Positions 1 to 7,208 of a DNA stretch of 63,994 nucleotides are shown piece by piece. Below the pieces are notes generated by a model, which worked only from the letters and a program-made list of their open reading frames with translations, was not told the origin of the DNA and searched no databases. Position numbers and translations under genes: made by a program. The stretch comes from a virus. Position 1 is the stretch's first letter; every line of letters starts with the position of its first letter. The DNA is taken from positions 1 to 63,994 of the IMG/VR virus record IMGVR_UViG_3300036670_000273. One strand, written 5' to 3'.

Positions 1-423
1 ATCTTCAATTTCTTTAGCAGCATCTTCTTCAAGTTTCTTGGCAGCCTCATCACTAATACCATCTAGCTTTAGTTTTTTAGGCTCTCCTTTTTTATTGATT
101 GCATCTTCAATTTCTTTAGCAGCATCTTCTTCAAGTTTCTTGGCTATAGCTTCTTTAATTGTTAACTTCATACTTTTTGTAGATCCTTTTGCATTAAGTT
201 CATCTTCTATTTCTTTAGCTCTATCTTCGCTAATGTCTTGTTTCATTGTAACTTCTTTGACTAAAGCTTCTAATTTAATTAAAAGATTTTTTTCTTTTTT
301 AAGTTCATGAATGTTGTTAAATCCCATTCCTTTTATTAATTCAAGTAAAGCGTTAGAGTCTATTGATTCTAATATAGATTTAGGTTGGTTTATTTCAGTT
401 GAAAACTTTTTGATAGGGTTCAT
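1..423 (-). CDS. Repeat-containing acidic/lysine-rich protein, 3' end cut off by window
   Basis: The first 141 codons of a minus-strand gene are visible, starting at ATG 423-421 and running off the window edge without a stop. The translation begins MNPIKKFSTEINQPK and is rich in Lys, Glu and Ala, suggesting long helices. The distal part contains a 34-residue (102-bp) tandem repeat with the core AKKLEEDAAKEIEDA: bases 1-46 and 103-148 are nearly identical. An upstream A/T-rich leader with a late-promoter-like core lies at 446-454. Function is not recognised; a charged helical repeat protein near virion genes could be a scaffold or an internal head component. It is the next gene downstream of the UvsW C-half. 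Confidence 0.7.
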   Translation of the reverse strand, partial: MNPIKKFSTEINQPKSILESIDSNALLELIKGMGFNNIHELKKEKNLLIKLEALVKEVTMKQDISEDRAKEIEDELNAKGSTKSMKLTIKEAIAKKLEEDAAKEIEDAINKKGEPKKLKLDGISDEAAKKLEEDAAKEIED

Positions 424-485: not shown

Positions 486-1421
486 TTAGATTTTTATATC
501 TTGTACATCAAATGGAAAGTTTTCTTCTTTATAAATTTTACGACGTTCTACACCATGTCGGTATACATAGTTTACCCAATCATGATCTTCAGACTTAATC
601 CTAAAATCATCAATAAAATCGTAAATTTTAACAACGTCCTTATTTGAATGTAATCGTAAGCCTCTACCAATAGATTGTCTTATAATAACCTCGGACTTAA
701 AAGATTCTGTAAAAAACACGTTATGTATATTTTTAATAGATATACCGGTAGAAAACGTACCAAATGATGCTACAATAATAACATCATCATTTTTTTCCAT
801 TCTAGATTTAAACTCTTCTCTAATATCAGCATTTATGGAACCATCTACGTAATACACTTTTTTATTAGTAATTTCTCTAAGCTTTTGATAAAGTTTTTCG
901 CCATACGCTATTTTATGAAATAATACCAATGAGTTAGCTGTTGATTTTTTAATTACATTACAAACAAAATTTAATCTAACTTCATTTTCATTAATGAAAT
1001 TCTGTTCTAATGCAAATAGTTTTTGGCGATCTTGTGGGTTTTTAGAAAGATGTGAAAATGCTTCTTTTTGTGCAGTTGTTGCATAATCAATATGAATTTG
1101 TAAAACTTTACACTTTGCAATGTGACCTTCATCTTGTAAATAGTTTGCTTTAATTTGAGTAACTAAAGGACCCATTGCTGACATAAGACTAAGTCTATTA
1201 ACAGTTCCTTTTTTTGGTATGGTACCACTTAAGCCAAATCGGTAGTCACAGTGCCAGCATTTATCCATAATACTCTGAATTGATGCTGCTTTAGCTTGAT
1301 GACAATTACTTACATTTTGATTGTTTGCAATATAATTATGATTTAAACCGCTTTCTGATTTAATTCTTAAATTATATACATCACCCGTATAATCTATTTT
1401 TCTTATTGATTTAATTTTCAT
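486..1421 (-). CDS. uvsW: UvsW helicase C-half, preceded by intein C-fragment (split intein, trans-splicing)
   Basis: 311 aa. Residues 1-39 are an intein C-terminal fragment: block F-like YTGDVYNLRI and HNYIANN, then block G ending NVSN just before Cys40. From Cys40 the protein reads CHQAKA, which continues a helicase motif II (DECH) whose DE lies at the end of the N-half gene at 5758-6759. The remaining 272 aa hold helicase motif III (LSGTIP), a motif V-like stretch (SFGTFSTGISIKN) and motif VI (QSIGRGLRLH) of a superfamily 2 ATPase, as in T4 UvsW. UvsW unwinds branched DNA and converts R-loop-initiated to recombination-dependent replication. The joined exteins total 500 aa, close to T4 UvsW. 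The penultimate intein residue is Ser, not the usual His. The split arrangement is seen directly; protein splicing is inferred. Confidence 0.93.
   Translation of the reverse strand: MKIKSIRKIDYTGDVYNLRIKSESGLNHNYIANNQNVSNCHQAKAASIQSIMDKCWHCDYRFGLSGTIPKKGTVNRLSLMSAMGPLVTQIKANYLQDEGHIAKCKVLQIHIDYATTAQKEAFSHLSKNPQDRQKLFALEQNFINENEVRLNFVCNVIKKSTANSLVLFHKIAYGEKLYQKLREITNKKVYYVDGSINADIREEFKSRMEKNDDVIIVASFGTFSTGISIKNIHNVFFTESFKSEVIIRQSIGRGLRLHSNKDVVKIYDFIDDFRIKSEDHDWVNYVYRHGVERRKIYKEENFPFDVQDIKI
1305..1421 (-). other. Intein C-fragment (IntC, 39 aa) coding segment
   Basis: This segment encodes the N-terminal 39 residues of the UvsW C-half. It ends in Asn immediately before the extein Cys (TGT at 1304-1302), as expected for Asn cyclisation with a Cys +1 nucleophile. 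Its length fits the C-part of naturally split inteins (about 35-40 aa). It pairs with the N-fragment at 5761-6075. Confidence 0.9.
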
Positions 1422-1442
1422 ATAACGTGTTAAGTTGATTAA

Positions 1443-2114
1443 TTAAACTTTGCTAACACTAACATTAACTTTAACACCCGATGTTAGTGTAGTATCAGTA
1501 GCTTGTTCATTTACATTTACGGTTACCTTTTTAGATAATTTTATTTTAAATGTATCGGACCATGGTATAAATAAATTACCATCAGCAACTACTTCAAGTT
1601 TAATAATACCAATATCACCTTCCTTTAAAATTCCTAATTTTTTTATAGGAACAATACATTTACCATTAGCAATAATCCCTGGAAAAACAAGAGACCATTC
1701 TGTTGTTTCAATTATAATTCTTGTATAAGATTCTGCAATATTAGCTCCTTCTATTGATATATCACAAGAAAATTCCTCGTTAATATCTTTATATAGTTTG
1801 TAATGCTTATCATCTTCAGCTAATATAGGAGGTGTAACTGGTAAAAGTGTTTCCTGTACTAATTCAGCTTCTTTTTCAATTATTTTAATCAGTTCAACTA
1901 CTTCGGCCTCAATTGGCAGTATATCTTCAACTAAAATTGGTTCAGCTGCTTCAGCTTCAATTGGCAGTATGTCTTCAACTAAAATTGGTTCAACTGATTC
2001 AGCTTCTTGTATAACTGGAATTATCTGAGACTTATTATCAGTTGTAGAATTAATACTATGTTTAGTATTCTTTTCCATGAAGTCTTTAAAACTAAAAACA
2101 TCAATGTTTTTCAT
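1443..2114 (-). CDS. Putative capsid-targeted internal protein with 16-aa tandem repeats
   Basis: 223 aa. The N-terminus MKNIDVFSFKDFMEKN resembles the capsid-targeting peptide shared by several proteins here, and an I-x-E site (VIQE) follows near residue 36. Residues about 40-75 contain a 16-residue repeat (EPILVEDILPIEAE), encoded by a 48-bp DNA repeat near 1909-2005. The C-terminal 110 residues look beta-rich and end in a basic strand region. It lies between the two UvsW halves, 21 bp upstream of the C-half. No enzymatic motif is visible. I infer a virion-internal protein. Confidence 0.7.
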   Translation of the reverse strand: MKNIDVFSFKDFMEKNTKHSINSTTDNKSQIIPVIQEAESVEPILVEDILPIEAEAAEPILVEDILPIEAEVVELIKIIEKEAELVQETLLPVTPPILAEDDKHYKLYKDINEEFSCDISIEGANIAESYTRIIIETTEWSLVFPGIIANGKCIVPIKKLGILKEGDIGIIKLEVVADGNLFIPWSDTFKIKLSKKVTVNVNEQATDTTLTSGVKVNVSVSKV

Positions 2115-2167
2115 AAATTTTACTATTTTTTATTACTTACTATATTATATATTGAAAATTAATATTG

Positions 2168-2515
2168 TTAGTTTTTATTTTTTAAAACCTTAACGTTAAT
2201 CGTTATACGTTCTCTAATACTATGCTCAATAAATAATGAAAAATCAGATCCAATTACTTTAATATTTTCATCAATTTCACGTGATTCATTATATACAAAA
2301 CCTTTATATTTACAATAAAGTTTAATGATCCGTTTTGTTTTTTCATCACCGAGATCTTTTTTAAGTCTTTCTTTAGGATGCCCATAAACAGAATGGCCAC
2401 CTGCTCTTTTTATTATAAAATCAACTTCAATTAAAATAGATACATCTGACCAAATGTCATTAGTAGTTTTCCAAAAACTAACTTCATTCCATTTAAGATA
2501 TTTTTTTTGTGACAT
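2168..2515 (-). CDS. Hypothetical protein, 115 aa
   Basis: Starts MSQKKYLKWNEVSFWKTTND. It is a basic protein with a beta-rich composition and ends VKVLKNKN. No family is recognised. It sits between a hairpin terminator that closes the adhesin gene upstream and the putative capsid-targeted protein downstream, and is one of six genes lying between the UvsW halves. Confidence 0.7.
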   Translation of the reverse strand: MSQKKYLKWNEVSFWKTTNDIWSDVSILIEVDFIIKRAGGHSVYGHPKERLKKDLGDEKTKRIIKLYCKYKGFVYNESREIDENIKVIGSDFSLFIEHSIRERITINVKVLKNKN

Positions 2516-2549
2516 ACCTATATTTTAATTACTAAGTCATATTTAATTA

Positions 2550-2583
2550 AATAAGCTTACCTATTTAAATAGATAAGCTTATT
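2550..2583 (-). terminator. Long hairpin downstream of the adhesin gene
   Basis: A near-perfect palindrome has 16-nt arms (AATAAGCTTACCTATT and its complement) with one G-T-type mismatch and a very short loop, directly after the stop at 2597. It is the only strong stem in this intergenic gap and probably ends transcription of the tail-fibre module. Confidence 0.6.
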
Positions 2584-2596
2584 TATTATTATTATT

Positions 2597-4678
2597 TTAA
2601 ACCATACTTATATATCCAATACCTGAACCTGTGATTGCACTAATAGCCGTAGTATTAAATTCTAGGTTGCTATAAGCACCAATGTGGGTTCTACCAATCT
2701 GATCGCCAATTGCTGCCGTACCTACCATGCTCAACTGAACACCTTCTGGTGAACGGAATCTAATTGGTGTTTCAACTGCTCCAATACCCTGTTGTCTGTA
2801 AGTTACCATAAGTATTTTCGCTGGTACACCGCTTCCAAATGAAACCCAGTTATTAGCTGTTGGAGTTGTTGATGATAATAATAATGTTTGAAGTGATTTC
2901 AAGTAAGTAACCGCTGATGCAGAACCTGCTAATGCTGCAACTGCTACTGTAGATGTAAATATAGCTGCTTTGGCTATTGAACTACCAAACAGAGATCCTA
3001 GTAAAGTATTGTTAGAAACATAGCTTGCCATTGCTGGTGCTGAATTTACTATTAATCCAATTGCTACTGCGTTTCCTATTGCTATCTCAAAATTAGAATT
3101 ATCTCCAAGTGCTGTAAGTGCTGCTGGATTAGCAACGAATCCTGTCATAATAAGACTATTTCCAACTACTATACTAAAGTTTGCACTTGTAGCTAAGGCA
3201 AGCATCGCGTCTGCGTTAGTTGCTAATACTTCTGATGCTCCTGCGTTTTCATTTACTAGTGTTAAAGCTGATGCTTTAGCTATGATTTGAGTAAAGGTTG
3301 ACATTATTAAAGTTATTCCTGCAAGATTATAAGTTATTGCAAAAGCATTATCTTCGTAGTAGGGGCTATCTTTAAATTCACCCCATCTTGTAACATTTGC
3401 ATTAATAGAGGTTATTGAAACGGTATTATTGGATACCGCTGTCATTGCTGTTTCAGAGTTAAAAATAATATCTCTTATTCCTACTGTAGAGGTCTCTCCA
3501 ACTAAAATTCCAACAGATATTGAATTAGCTGATAATTTAGCCATTCCTACGGTGTCGTTAATGGCAAGCGTTAAATTAGCGTGAGTAGATAACGCTGTTA
3601 TACCTGCTGAATTACCAGCAAGCGCAGTCATTATTACTGAATCACCTTTTACAAGTGAAAAATTTGTGCTTGTAGCTATGTTAACCATTGCCGTATTATT
3701 GCTAGCCAATGCAGCCATAATAACTGTATTACTTGTTACGATAGAAAGATTAGCGCTTGCACCCAATGTTAGCATTGCATCACTACTTGAAGCTAATGCT
3801 TCGGATGCGCCTTCATTTGCGTTAACTGCTCCTATTGCAACAGCGTCATTTATAATATCGTCAATTGTTGCAAAAGATAAAGGGTCAACTCCTGCTAGGT
3901 TTGCTATTGTATTTTTTAAATTTGCCACAAAGAAATCACTACCTTTATAGGAAGCTCTTGCAACACTATTAGCATATATGGTATCTACCGCTATCTTACT
4001 ATTGGAAATAGCAGCTACAGCCAATGCCTTTGTAGAGAGTTCTAACATAGCTATTGTGCTATTAGCAATAGCTGTCATACTTCTTTGAGAAAACGTGATA
4101 TAGCTTAAAGCAGTTGCATTTGTAGCTACAAGCTCCATACCTATACTATTGACTGATGTTCTTAAAACTAAATCATCATCTTCTATGATAGCTCTAATTG
4201 CATTAGTACTAGCTATGATTTGTGCCATTGCTACAGGGTCTGCAAACACATAGTTTCTGTCAGGATATACTACTAAGTCTAGCCCAGCAAAAACCGCAGC
4301 AGCATAACCAAGATTATCTATAGCATAGGGACTTTGCAAGTATACGTCCCACGCTACTTGATTATTTATGATTGTAGTTAAAGTTGATAGGCTAAGCGAC
4401 ACATTAAGCATTGCTAAAGGACTTGCAGCCATTGCTTGTGCTGCTGTTGAATTATTTATACTAGCTGCTCCAAAAACTGAAGCCGTTGCAATTGAGCTAC
4501 CAATAATAGCAGACACTGCTAATTGGTTTGCTGCTAAACTTCGTGTTTCACTTCTCATTGAAAGTGTTTCTTCAAAACCTGCTTTTACACCTGGGTCGGC
4601 TAGTTTTGTTTCAAATTCTGGTCCAAGTACTGTTCCTGATTTTACCGCAGTTAGCAGTCTTCTTGTTGATAATTGCAT
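2597..4678 (-). CDS. Large repetitive tail fibre/adhesin-like protein
   Basis: 693 aa, very rich in Ala, Ser, Asn, Thr and Val, and almost free of Cys and Trp. Most of it is a degenerate 29-residue repeat: for example NNTAMVNIATSTNFSLVKGD followed by SVIMTALAG, with neighbouring copies of exactly the same length. This pattern suggests a regular solenoid or fibre. The C-terminal 95 residues are non-repetitive (from about NNWVSFGSG) and end GSGIGYISMV, as for a small distal head domain. The first 45 residues form a separate N-terminal unit. It follows three short fibre-associated genes in the same direction. Known receptor-binding families were not recognised; the virion adhesin role is inferred from repeats and context. 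Confidence 0.7.
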   Translation of the reverse strand: MQLSTRRLLTAVKSGTVLGPEFETKLADPGVKAGFEETLSMRSETRSLAANQLAVSAIIGSSIATASVFGAASINNSTAAQAMAASPLAMLNVSLSLSTLTTIINNQVAWDVYLQSPYAIDNLGYAAAVFAGLDLVVYPDRNYVFADPVAMAQIIASTNAIRAIIEDDDLVLRTSVNSIGMELVATNATALSYITFSQRSMTAIANSTIAMLELSTKALAVAAISNSKIAVDTIYANSVARASYKGSDFFVANLKNTIANLAGVDPLSFATIDDIINDAVAIGAVNANEGASEALASSSDAMLTLGASANLSIVTSNTVIMAALASNNTAMVNIATSTNFSLVKGDSVIMTALAGNSAGITALSTHANLTLAINDTVGMAKLSANSISVGILVGETSTVGIRDIIFNSETAMTAVSNNTVSITSINANVTRWGEFKDSPYYEDNAFAITYNLAGITLIMSTFTQIIAKASALTLVNENAGASEVLATNADAMLALATSANFSIVVGNSLIMTGFVANPAALTALGDNSNFEIAIGNAVAIGLIVNSAPAMASYVSNNTLLGSLFGSSIAKAAIFTSTVAVAALAGSASAVTYLKSLQTLLLSSTTPTANNWVSFGSGVPAKILMVTYRQQGIGAVETPIRFRSPEGVQLSMVGTAAIGDQIGRTHIGAYSNLEFNTTAISAITGSGIGYISMV

Positions 4679-4702
4679 AAATTTTATTTTAATTTGATTT
4701 TT

Positions 4703-5311
4703 CTACTTTGTTACAAAAAAAGGTGTTAATCTACTTGTTTCATCTTCATCAAGTTCATCTCTAAAATTTCTATCGTCGGTTGCCCATGCAGATTGTAAAT
4801 CAGGAGCTGCTACATTTAAAAGCCACTGTCCGAATGGAATTGATGTTACTGGGTCTACTGCGGTAAAGCAGGTTTCGTCATCATCAGGTTCTAAGGTTGA
4901 TTGTACAAATATTAAAAGCCCAATACCTTCTATAACTACTGAATCATCAACTGATGCTAAGGGTAAAGTAGGTGTTCTTAAATTTCCCCTATTTTCATAT
5001 GTTAAAGTTTCAAGCTCTGTTTTGCTTCTCTCTATTACTAAAGGAGTGCCACCAACAATAGATTGACCATTTATAGTAACTAAATCATCTATATTTGCTT
5101 TTAAATTTAGCGCAGTAACGGCGGCGTCGCTTAAAGGTTTATCAAAATCTGATGTATTATCTACATTATCAAGTTCATTAGCAACTCTATCTATAGTATC
5201 AGCAAACTGATCAACCGCATCTGCTACAATTAGTTGTTGAGCTATAACTGCGGTTGATAACGCTGTTGTTGCTGTTGTTAATGCTGCTATTAATTCTTCA
5301 GTTGTTGCCAT
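4703..5311 (-). CDS. Tail fibre-associated protein with fibre-type repeat
   Basis: 202 aa. The N-terminal 60 residues are a helical, Ala/Thr-rich segment. Then follows SDAAVTALNLKANIDDL, a motif typical of phage tail-fibre stalk repeats, and a C-terminal beta domain ending with a short acidic segment (DELDEDE). Its stop lies 24 bp upstream of the large adhesin start. Probably a virion fibre or collar component; the specific role is unknown. Confidence 0.65.
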   Translation of the reverse strand: MATTEELIAALTTATTALSTAVIAQQLIVADAVDQFADTIDRVANELDNVDNTSDFDKPLSDAAVTALNLKANIDDLVTINGQSIVGGTPLVIERSKTELETLTYENRGNLRTPTLPLASVDDSVVIEGIGLLIFVQSTLEPDDDETCFTAVDPVTSIPFGQWLLNVAAPDLQSAWATDDRNFRDELDEDETSRLTPFFVTK

Positions 5312-5312
5312 G

Positions 5313-5516
5313 TTATCTATTTAATAGTGTAATTAATAAAGCTTGTGTGTTAATTAAATTTGTACTTACAACAAATAATGGTTCAATTGCTTTATTTTCT
5401 GATTCTACTACAGAATCAGAAATAAGTTGTGAAACTCCATCTCGGAGAGATACACATGTATCTAATAGTGATGTTGTTTGTGTAGTTAGGTCAGATATTA
5501 CAGCTTCAATTGTCAT
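5313..5516 (-). CDS. Small helical fibre-module protein
   Basis: 67 aa from ATG 5516 (MTIEAVISDLTTQTTSLLD). I chose this start because it overlaps the upstream gene's stop by 11 nt; the longer reading frame would need a TTG start. The protein is a hydrophobic-heptad helix, likely a trimerising coiled coil. It has no recognised family. Genes on both sides look fibre-related. Confidence 0.55.
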   Translation of the reverse strand: MTIEAVISDLTTQTTSLLDTCVSLRDGVSQLISDSVVESENKAIEPLFVVSTNLINTQALLITLLNR

Positions 5517-5715
5517 ATGATTTAAAAATAAATTTTGCAAATACGTTTTGCGTTTGAATTAAATTAGTTGCTAATCTAATTTGCGAAATAACAGAATAAC
5601 CAATATCAAGTGTTTCACCTAATCCATTAAAGAACATGCCGCTTTCATCAGTTTGTACTAATCTTTGGAATGTAGCAGATATCTCTTCTTCTGTTAAATC
5701 TAAAGGGTTACTCAT
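5506..5715 (-). CDS. Small fibre-module protein, 69 aa
   Basis: Starts MSNPLDLTEEEISATFQRLV and has helical character throughout. It is the first gene of a four-gene fibre-like module that runs 5715 to 2597, and it follows the stop codon of the UvsW N-half. A late-promoter-like core lies 20 nt upstream. Function not recognised. Confidence 0.6.
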   Translation of the reverse strand: MSNPLDLTEEEISATFQRLVQTDESGMFFNGLGETLDIGYSVISQIRLATNLIQTQNVFAKFIFKSYDN

Positions 5716-5734
5716 TTGTTTATTAATTATATTA

Positions 5735-5743
5735 GTTTATATA
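5735..5743 (-). promoter_or_regulatory. Late-promoter-like core TATATAAAC
   Basis: The minus strand reads TATATAAAC about 20 nt upstream of the start at 5715. It would let the fibre module between the UvsW halves be transcribed late, independently of uvsW. Confidence 0.45.
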
Positions 5744-5757
5744 TCTCTATTTATTTT

Positions 5758-6759
5758 TTAACAATTATTAATGACTTGATAATCAGAAAAACTTAATATT
5801 TCATCATCCGTTGTTAATTCATCAACTCTTTTATAAATACCTGTAATTAATTTAACTTTATGATTTCCTGTAATTTTAATAATAGAAAGATCAGCCATTT
5901 CTAATTCAAACATTTGATTACCATGTGATAAATTCTTATGAACATAATCAACTTGATTATGTTCAACTTCTAAAGTTTTATCATTAATAGTTTTAACCCA
6001 ATCACCTTCTTTAATTTTTGAAATTAGTTTAGTACTACCATCAGTTAACATAATTTGTGTATCAGGATGTAAACATTCATCTACAAATACTGCATCAAAT
6101 TGACTAAAATATTCTTCATCATATTTAACAAGAGATTGATATGTGCCAATGACAATATTTGAGCTAGGTCTAAGTTTAACGCCAGCATAAATTTGTTGAA
6201 TTTTTATAGGTACTCTACTTTTATTATACTGCTCAAAATCGCCAGATGCCTGAACAACAAGACTGACATTCGGAACAATCATAAGTATTTTTTTCTTACT
6301 TAATTGTTCAAGCATATAAGCAACAACAATAAATGAAATTAATGTTTTACCAGCTGATGTTGCTAATTCTGCTAAGCATCTCCTGTATCTTAATATTTTA
6401 AAAGCAGCATCTACTTGATAATCTCTTGGTTTTATATCAGCCTTTTCAAAAAAATCAATAACCCAAGAATTAAAGTTGTCAATATTTAATTCAGAATCAA
6501 AAATATCTGTAATTTTGTTTAAAGTAAATTTTAAATCGTATTCTTTACAAATATCAATAACTTCTTTCCAAAGCCCTGCTGGTATTTTATTACCCTTAAT
6601 AAAAGTAATATTTCCATCCCATATTTTCTTTTTCACAAGAGGATGAAACCGCCACCCTTCTATTTTCTTAGTAAGGCTAGATTTTAACTGCTCATATTCT
6701 AATTCAGTACATGAATCAATAACTAAAAATTTTTTATTGTCTGTAAGTGATAATTCCAT
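5758..6759 (-). CDS. uvsW: UvsW helicase N-half fused to intein N-fragment (split intein)
   Basis: 333 aa. Residues 1-100 match the DNA-recognition N-domain of T4 UvsW (GWRFHPLVKKKIWDGNI near 35-51). A Q-motif-like PRDYQVDA lies at 111-118, Walker A TSAGKT at 134-139, and IGTYQSL before motif II. The helicase sequence stops at VFVDE (residue 228). Cys229 starts a 105-aa intein N-fragment with block A (CLHPDTQI) and block B (ITGNHKV), with no endonuclease domain, then a stop. The missing helicase half is at 486-1421 and resumes with CH, rebuilding DECH. The start overlaps the uvsY stop by one base (TAATG), so uvsY and the N-half are co-transcribed. The half alone lacks motifs III-VI and should be inactive without splicing. 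Confidence 0.94.
   Translation of the reverse strand: MELSLTDNKKFLVIDSCTELEYEQLKSSLTKKIEGWRFHPLVKKKIWDGNITFIKGNKIPAGLWKEVIDICKEYDLKFTLNKITDIFDSELNIDNFNSWVIDFFEKADIKPRDYQVDAAFKILRYRRCLAELATSAGKTLISFIVVAYMLEQLSKKKILMIVPNVSLVVQASGDFEQYNKSRVPIKIQQIYAGVKLRPSSNIVIGTYQSLVKYDEEYFSQFDAVFVDECLHPDTQIMLTDGSTKLISKIKEGDWVKTINDKTLEVEHNQVDYVHKNLSHGNQMFELEMADLSIIKITGNHKVKLITGIYKRVDELTTDDEILSFSDYQVINNC
5761..6075 (-). other. Intein N-fragment (IntN, 105 aa) coding segment
   Basis: It begins with TGT (6075-6073, Cys1) directly after the codons for the extein VDE and ends at the stop codon. Block A and block B (T-x-x-H) signatures are present. With the 39-aa IntC this gives a 144-aa mini-intein, a normal size for split inteins. 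Confidence 0.92.
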
Positions 6760-7208
6760 TATATTTGTTCATCATCGAGTCTAATGCGATTTCTTATAGC
6801 GAAAGCTAAATTGTCAAGGGTTTTAATACAATCATAATAATAATCAACATGAGATTGTAATAAATCCATTTGTGTTCTTAATGAGGATAAATCTGCCTTT
6901 ATAAATTGATGTTTTTCGCCGCTCGTTAGTTTAACATCATAATTTAAAGTATACTCTCTATATTGTGATCTATAGTATCTATCCCAAGTACCATTTCTTT
7001 TATATATCATTGTTTTAAAATCAGTAACTTTATCTAAAAGAATTTGTCTATACGATAACATATTAACTTGGCAATCAGATAATTCATTCATATTTTTAAT
7101 TTTATGAACAAGTGTATTGATTTTATCTTTCCACTCTACTCTATCTTTTGATAATCTAGGCTCTAGTTCATCATTAGCAGCTCTTGTTTGTTCATCATCA
7201 AATGCCAT
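6759..7208 (-). CDS. uvsY: UvsY-like recombination mediator
   Basis: 149 aa and mostly helical. T4 UvsY (137 aa) loads the UvsX recombinase onto gp32-coated ssDNA. The candidate shares size, an all-helical composition and a C-terminal segment (DNLAFAIRNRIR) resembling the UvsY end, and it sits next to uvsW as in T4-type phages. The middle has a basic, Tyr-rich stretch (WDRYYRSQYREY) suited to nucleic-acid contact. Start and stop both overlap neighbours (TAATG), so translation is probably coupled. The assignment rests on weak similarity plus synteny. Confidence 0.65.
   Translation of the reverse strand: MAFDDEQTRAANDELEPRLSKDRVEWKDKINTLVHKIKNMNELSDCQVNMLSYRQILLDKVTDFKTMIYKRNGTWDRYYRSQYREYTLNYDVKLTSGEKHQFIKADLSSLRTQMDLLQSHVDYYYDCIKTLDNLAFAIRNRIRLDDEQI

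Follow-up and report, generated by a model that had tools for sequence, protein, structure and literature searches.

Dassa et al. in 2009 reportedly defined a class of fractured genes, in which split inteins (gp41-1, gp41-8, NrdA-2, NrdJ-1 and IMPDH-1) are accompanied by a free-standing homing endonuclease. In the split DnaE system, the two halves are separated by unrelated genes. Here we describe a comparable locus in a viral record of 63,994 nucleotides, IMG/VR IMGVR_UViG_3300036670_000273 (the window, taken over its full length). A sequence-only reading of this DNA had proposed that its uvsW helicase gene is fractured, with a split intein inserted in motif II. Our results agree with this, and we put at about 0.92 the probability that the two UvsW halves are trans-spliced by the split intein to a seamless helicase, and that the locus is of fractured-gene origin.

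In the window, uvsW, which encodes a DNA-repair helicase, occupies two minus-strand ORFs: the N-half at 5758–6759 and, 4.3 kb further downstream, the C-half at 486–1421. The N-half (333 aa) consists of a 228-aa extein (...FDAVFVDE) and a 105-aa IntN (CLHPDTQI...INNC), followed by a stop. The C-half (311 aa) consists of a 39-aa IntC (MKIKSIRK...HNYIANNQNVSN, ending NVSN) directly before a 272-aa extein (CHQAKA...). On translation, both junctions proposed by the sequence-only reading, VFVDE followed by a Cys-starting IntN and NVSN followed by CHQAKA, were found to be exact to the base. The layout is that of a split intein: there are two separate ORFs with one extein half each, and IntC has its own start. 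The break separates DE from CH within the helicase ATPase motif II. When the exteins are joined, a UvsW of 228 + 272 = 500 aa results, the length that had been predicted, and motif II reads V-D-E-C-H.

Features of the split uvsW locus (positions in the window)
Feature	Position	Strand	Remarks
uvsY-like gene	6759..7208	-	directly upstream of N-half; phrog_231 E 4e-4; order conserved in relatives
N-extein	6076..6759	-	UvsW residues 1-228, ends VFVDE (first half of motif II)
IntN, 105 aa	5761..6075	-	starts with Cys1; block B TGNH; stop codon 5758-5760
Six-ORF block between halves	1443..5715	-	occupies the place of the relatives' nuclease-like ORF
ORFs of the block	5506-5715, 5313-5540, 4703-5311, 2597-4678, 2168-2515, 1443-2114	-	
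IntC, 39 aa	1305..1421	-	own ATG; block F VYNL...NHNY; ends V-S-N
C-extein	489..1304	-	UvsW 229-500; starts Cys+1-His (second half of motif II); helicase C domain; stop 486-488
5' part of gene after C-half	1..423	-	compared by eye only with the L160/L198 gene

The Pfam matches of the N-half were UvsW_N (PF21241, 1.8e-5), ResIII (1.2e-17) and Hint (5.2e-7), and that of the C-half was Helicase_C (4e-7). The two halves together carry the UvsW N-domain and the SF2 helicase domains expected of a UvsW helicase. The search against intein families that had been suggested gave a score above the TIGR01445 intein_Nterm cut-off (NCBIfam) for IntN. IntC alone stayed under the Pfam cut-off (PF14890, E 3.1e-4); it was aligned residue by residue with its intein family. 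The PHROG family phrog_16259 covered the N-half together with IntN (residues 7–323, E 1.3e-54) and phrog_9690 the C-half together with IntC (residues 1–310, E 2.9e-68). The halves from Salmonella phage S16 match the same two families over their full length, and hence split halves have already been gathered there as 'DNA helicase'. The N-extein was 58–90% identical to intein-free UvsW. The uvsY-like gene adjoining the N-half makes the neighbourhood T4-like for recombination. An intact UvsW query matched only the two halves, so that the intact uvsW that would have spoken against a fractured gene was not found on the 63,994-bp record (which is possibly incomplete); by TIGR01445 there was no second intein on it. 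T4-type late promoters (TATAAATA) numbered 24, with 23.8 expected by chance, and their count is therefore uninformative on expression. A sigma-70 scan of the window gave 53 sites, no excess over the 50.6 expected.

When IMG/VR was scanned with the IntN alignment, 194 related stretches were obtained and 80 loci were kept, of which the 75 with both halves visible were scored. Sixty-four of these lay in UvsW (one judged from its C-half only) and 11 in a helicase of the XPD/DinG type (phrog_2488, Helicase_C_2). Removal of identical inteins left a non-redundant set of 63, which includes those of the window, S16, PM2 and Lak; the locus counts are not counts of independent events. The family thus comprises about 60 distinct inteins, located between DE and CH of motif II. 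It is carried by cultured Salmonella phages of the S16 group and by Proteus phage PM2, and also by metagenome-assembled Prevotella Lak-B megaphages. A scan of genome contigs gave only six weak relatives. In the annotation of S16, the halves are two helicases and the intervening ORF is hypothetical; the spliced junction of S16 UvsW would read NDE|CHLATGK. Split-intein uvsW was thus already present, though unrecognised, in PHROG families and in the cultured phages S16, STP4-a and PM2. Dozens of separate contigs are split at this very codon. Chance or an assembly artefact was ruled out on the ground that these contigs are independent.

The residues needed for splicing were conserved. Cys1 was present in the window and in all 75 scored loci, and so was Cys+1 in the latter, with CH at +1/+2 in 73. 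The block B motif TxxH was found in 63/63 non-redundant inteins (TGNH in the window), and IntC began with Met in 57 of them. Block F was present in the window, where the terminal Asn is followed by Cys+1 (N|C). The window intein has the class 1 features Cys1, TxxH and terminal Asn with Cys+1, and lacks the penultimate His. This His of block G, common in class 1 and not required, was seen only in S16/PM2 among the inteins examined. The sequence-only reading had pointed to the penultimate Ser as mechanistically interesting. The residue is there, but it is not special: at the 75 loci it was Ser in 67, Ala in 5, Lys in 2 and Glu in 1, and class 2 KlbA inteins likewise have Ser there, splicing without the penultimate His being known from other inteins too (PMC4031507). 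The Ssp DnaE intein is described as lacking this His in the title of a reference listed there.

The conserved residues bear on whether the halves are joined at all. They could instead form a helicase of two subunits, with either the intein fragments or the helicase domains keeping them together, and genes in pieces that function without splicing do exist; one example, cited in PMC10448857, is a ribonucleotide reductase that an endonuclease gene divides and that still functions as two peptides. We regard such a complex as improbable here. It would need no Cys1, Asn or Cys+1, whereas all splicing residues are conserved, and the break parts DE from CH inside an ATPase motif. Moreover, in the UvsW relatives examined, Cys+1 comes with the intein and is absent without it. 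Of 61 distinct alignments spanning the site, four were C-halves of intein carriers. The remaining 57, from intein-free UvsW, had Thr (54), Ala (2) or Val (1) at +1, and never Cys. Near kin of the window without the intein read VDE-THKAKA, and the Cys-less set includes both L005, a relative of the window with 89–90% identity in the exteins, and L198, a relative of L160. For the XPD/DinG-like helicase, Cys was found in 4/4 intein copies and Ala (11), Cys (6) or Ser (1) in 18 intein-free copies; since 6/18 have Cys without an intein, the Cys+1 test is weaker for that host. T4 UvsW itself has DECH and no intein. The helicase can therefore accommodate Cys at this site, and outside this clade Cys+1 and the intein do not always go together.

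Trans-splicing, which we favour, would proceed as follows. The gene would be expressed as two polypeptides, UvsW(1–228)-IntN and IntC-UvsW(229–500), whose intein parts would associate and fold into one HINT domain. The N-extein would be carried by Cys1 and Cys+1 through thioester and then branched intermediates. On cyclisation of the terminal Asn, seamless UvsW with motif II V-D-E-C-H would be released. Splicing and the activity of the product are inferred here from the anatomy, the catalytic residues, the conserved site, the predicted fold of a fused homologue, purifying selection and the tie of Cys+1 to the intein. On this basis, a two-part self-splicing element very probably welds the UvsW halves at the active site.

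The predicted fold was obtained from a natural fused form. In L155/L156 the same intein is unsplit and lies within a single 639-aa UvsW. AlphaFold, run on the L155 intein with the window sequences in the alignment, gave a model with pLDDT 88.9 and pTM 0.85. Its best PDB matches were inteins and intein-like domains, including gp41-1 and NrdJ-1 (prob 1.00). The HINT fold is thus predicted for the intein of this fused homologue. T4 UvsW (2oca) aligned to both L155 exteins, with the break at T4 DE|CH.

In comparisons with the window, dN/dS was 0.24–0.32 for IntN and 0.10–0.17 for IntC, and was also well below 1 for the exteins; these values are approximate because dS was high in several pairs. The low ratios indicate that the intein pieces are under purifying selection. 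They weigh against a broken and decaying uvsW, whose halves would be pseudogene remnants while another helicase did the job. The record may be a partial genome and the relatives' nuclease-like ORF is missing from it, as such decay would allow, but both ORFs are of full length and the same split persists in very divergent phages. We consider decay highly improbable.

The DNA between the halves differs between the window and most of its relatives. A full-length nuclease-like ORF was present at 58 of the 75 loci (gap 797–1116 nt, median 840), a partial one at seven, and none was found at ten; the latter had a gap below 400 nt in five cases, a larger gap in three and a cis-fused intein in two. In the relatives of the window it is a single ORF of about 270–310 aa. 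RS-W, E, DF and EI-P positions are invariant across the family, which matched PF08722 TnsA-like_N (2e-9 to 4.5e-4). Its fold matches, to TnsA (prob 0.99, E 0.03) and to the EDxHD homing endonuclease I-Bth0305I (3r3p; prob 0.93, E 0.06), were weak and below significance, and a sequence search of the PDB gave no match. The ORF is probably a homing endonuclease. On these weak matches, it probably corresponds to the Vsr-related homing endonuclease reported by Dassa et al. for fractured genes. The likeness to I-Bth0305I and TnsA concerns the relatives' ORF and does not extend to the window, from which this ORF is absent. The window thus lacks the endonuclease ORF between the halves that marks fractured genes, and no endonuclease of this family was found anywhere in it, in line with the earlier description of a mini-intein without an endonuclease.

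Instead of the nuclease-like ORF, the window has six tail-type ORFs over 4.3 kb, on which the sequence-only reading was silent. Two of the six products, of 202 aa and 693 aa, have tail-fibre PHROG matches. In L058/L160 and L168, whose exteins are 56–58% identical, the order N-IntN, tail-type genes, IntC-C is the same, and L055 has the order of the window with most of the tail part missing. The separate contigs L058/L160 and L168, which come from other metagenomes, and L055 with its partly missing block, make an assembly chimera or a misplaced C-half most improbable, although the C-half does lie near one contig end.

An intein-free relative of L160, L198 (76–79% identical in the exteins), has an intact uvsW with the equivalent block genes immediately downstream, and then the same next gene. 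Relative to L198, either the C-half and the block may have changed places, or an intact uvsW may have been restored upstream. By eye, the gene at 1..423 of the window resembles a 579-aa/595-aa gene of L160/L198, located there after uvsW or the block. The 223-aa and 693-aa genes were both absent from the available records of fourteen other intein-free kin contigs. In the intein tree, L002, whose nuclease-like ORF encodes 277 aa, groups with the window (support 0.93) and L168 falls outside; the nuclease-like ORF may have been replaced by the tail block in a single event or in two. In evolutionary terms, the locus would be a fractured-gene split intein that has lost its likely homing endonuclease, with tail-type genes now occupying the gap.

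The intein is patchy in its distribution, as the nearest UvsW relatives of the window (89–90% in the exteins) are without it. Among L055, L058 and L168, IntN, IntC and the IntC-adjacent genes were near-identical (dS about 0 to 0.1) and the exteins had diverged (dS 0.16–0.40), the near-identity being lost exactly where IntC meets the extein. At the other junction, it extended over the final ~180 nt of the N-extein in two of the three comparisons, which in these three contigs fits what co-conversion would leave. XPD-hosted inteins formed mainly one group in the tree; two outliers fell among the UvsW-hosted ones and would fit transfer between helicases sharing the DE-C-H site. A tentative and rather doubtful extension is that the split-intein gap offers exchangeable tail-type genes a protected place within an essential-type gene, with IntN, tail genes and IntC spreading between phages as one unit and the spliced helicase making the insertion harmless. 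We raise it because the intein and IntC-adjacent genes are near-identical against diverged exteins, because L058 has the tail part and L055 lacks it, and because in L198 this block follows a uvsW that is intact.

The sequence-only reading knew of no UvsW among split-intein hosts, and the literature searched gave no report of a UvsW split intein; Dassa et al. 2009, with its list of enzymes, lies outside that coverage. The mechanism would be the one established for split inteins, and UvsW as host appears unreported in the searchable literature. UvsW and a second SF2 helicase are hereby added as split-intein hosts cut within the ATPase motif, at DE|CH. The loci form a natural gradation that begins with the nuclease-like ORF and passes by way of remnants, tiny gaps and overlap to a fused cis intein, with a separate branch in which unrelated genes lie between the halves. 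This makes the origin and fixation of split inteins directly testable, including in the cultured T4-like phage S16. The inteins might also serve as new tools for orthogonal ligation.

As in the known fractured genes, a split intein interrupts a phage enzyme gene at this locus, IntN being about 100 aa long and IntC about 39 aa; a single nuclease-like ORF separates the halves in relatives of the window, and the L155 fold matches gp41-1 and NrdJ-1. The present case differs in its hosts, which are UvsW and an XPD/DinG-like helicase, each interrupted within motif II, and in the 4.3 kb of tail-type genes that the window, L058/L160 and L168 have where the nuclease-like ORF is gone. With cyanobacterial split DnaE (Ssp/Npu) it would share trans-splicing by a class 1 intein, and it has the same Cys1 and Cys+1; the host there is a chromosomal polymerase subunit and here a phage helicase, and the similarity of NpuDnaE (4kl5) to the L155 intein is at the level of the fold only (19% identity). 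Intact T4 UvsW (PDB 2oca, 1rif) is the same SF2 helicase, to which the exteins align nearly full length through L155, but it is one uninterrupted chain with DECH intact.

The intein of the window was also found in an unsplit form. In two related contigs (L155 and L156) it lay inside one contiguous 639-aa UvsW, from which the endonuclease was absent. This intein is a natural cis version of the split intein in the window.

When the DNA between the halves was compared among related loci, endonuclease remnants were seen in L262, L263, and L268. The halves were 45-70 nt apart in L254, L257, and L266 and 211 nt apart in L245, and the half ORFs overlapped in L276. Taken together, these loci look like successive stages in the decay of the intervening ORF, with the split intein being retained. 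The tail genes for the 202-aa and 693-aa products, located between the uvsW halves, differed in presence between the close phage relatives L055 (8959-10378) and L058 (8959-13196); from the 693-aa gene, L055 retains just the final ~38 codons.

The same split intein, along with a nuclease-like ORF, interrupted an XPD/DinG-like phage helicase (phrog_2488) in three loci, at motif II between DE and CH, as in UvsW. A related intein in L269 (6001-7283) occupied the site GSE-C / N-CNEM in place of DE-CH, and its 848-nt gap contained no recognised endonuclease. An intein N-fragment in L281 (1687-2031), a contig assigned by binning to the genome of an uncultured member of the Bacilli, was weakly related (39% identity).

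Helicase loci carrying the intein
Feature	Locus	Position
XPD/DinG-like helicase with split intein and nuclease-like ORF	L169	8388-11321
XPD/DinG-like helicase with split intein and nuclease-like ORF	L170	9449-12433
XPD/DinG-like helicase with split intein and nuclease-like ORF	L172	6516-9448
Contiguous UvsW with unsplit intein	L155	9320-11239
Fractured UvsW and nuclease-like ORF	L174 (S16)	3953-6679
Fractured UvsW and nuclease-like ORF	L175 (PM2)	3914-6685

Fractured UvsW, with the nuclease-like ORF between its halves, is present in the cultured phages S16 (Salmonella) and PM2 (Proteus), where the halves are annotated as two helicases and the ORF between them as a hypothetical protein. The penultimate residue of the inteins of both phages is His.
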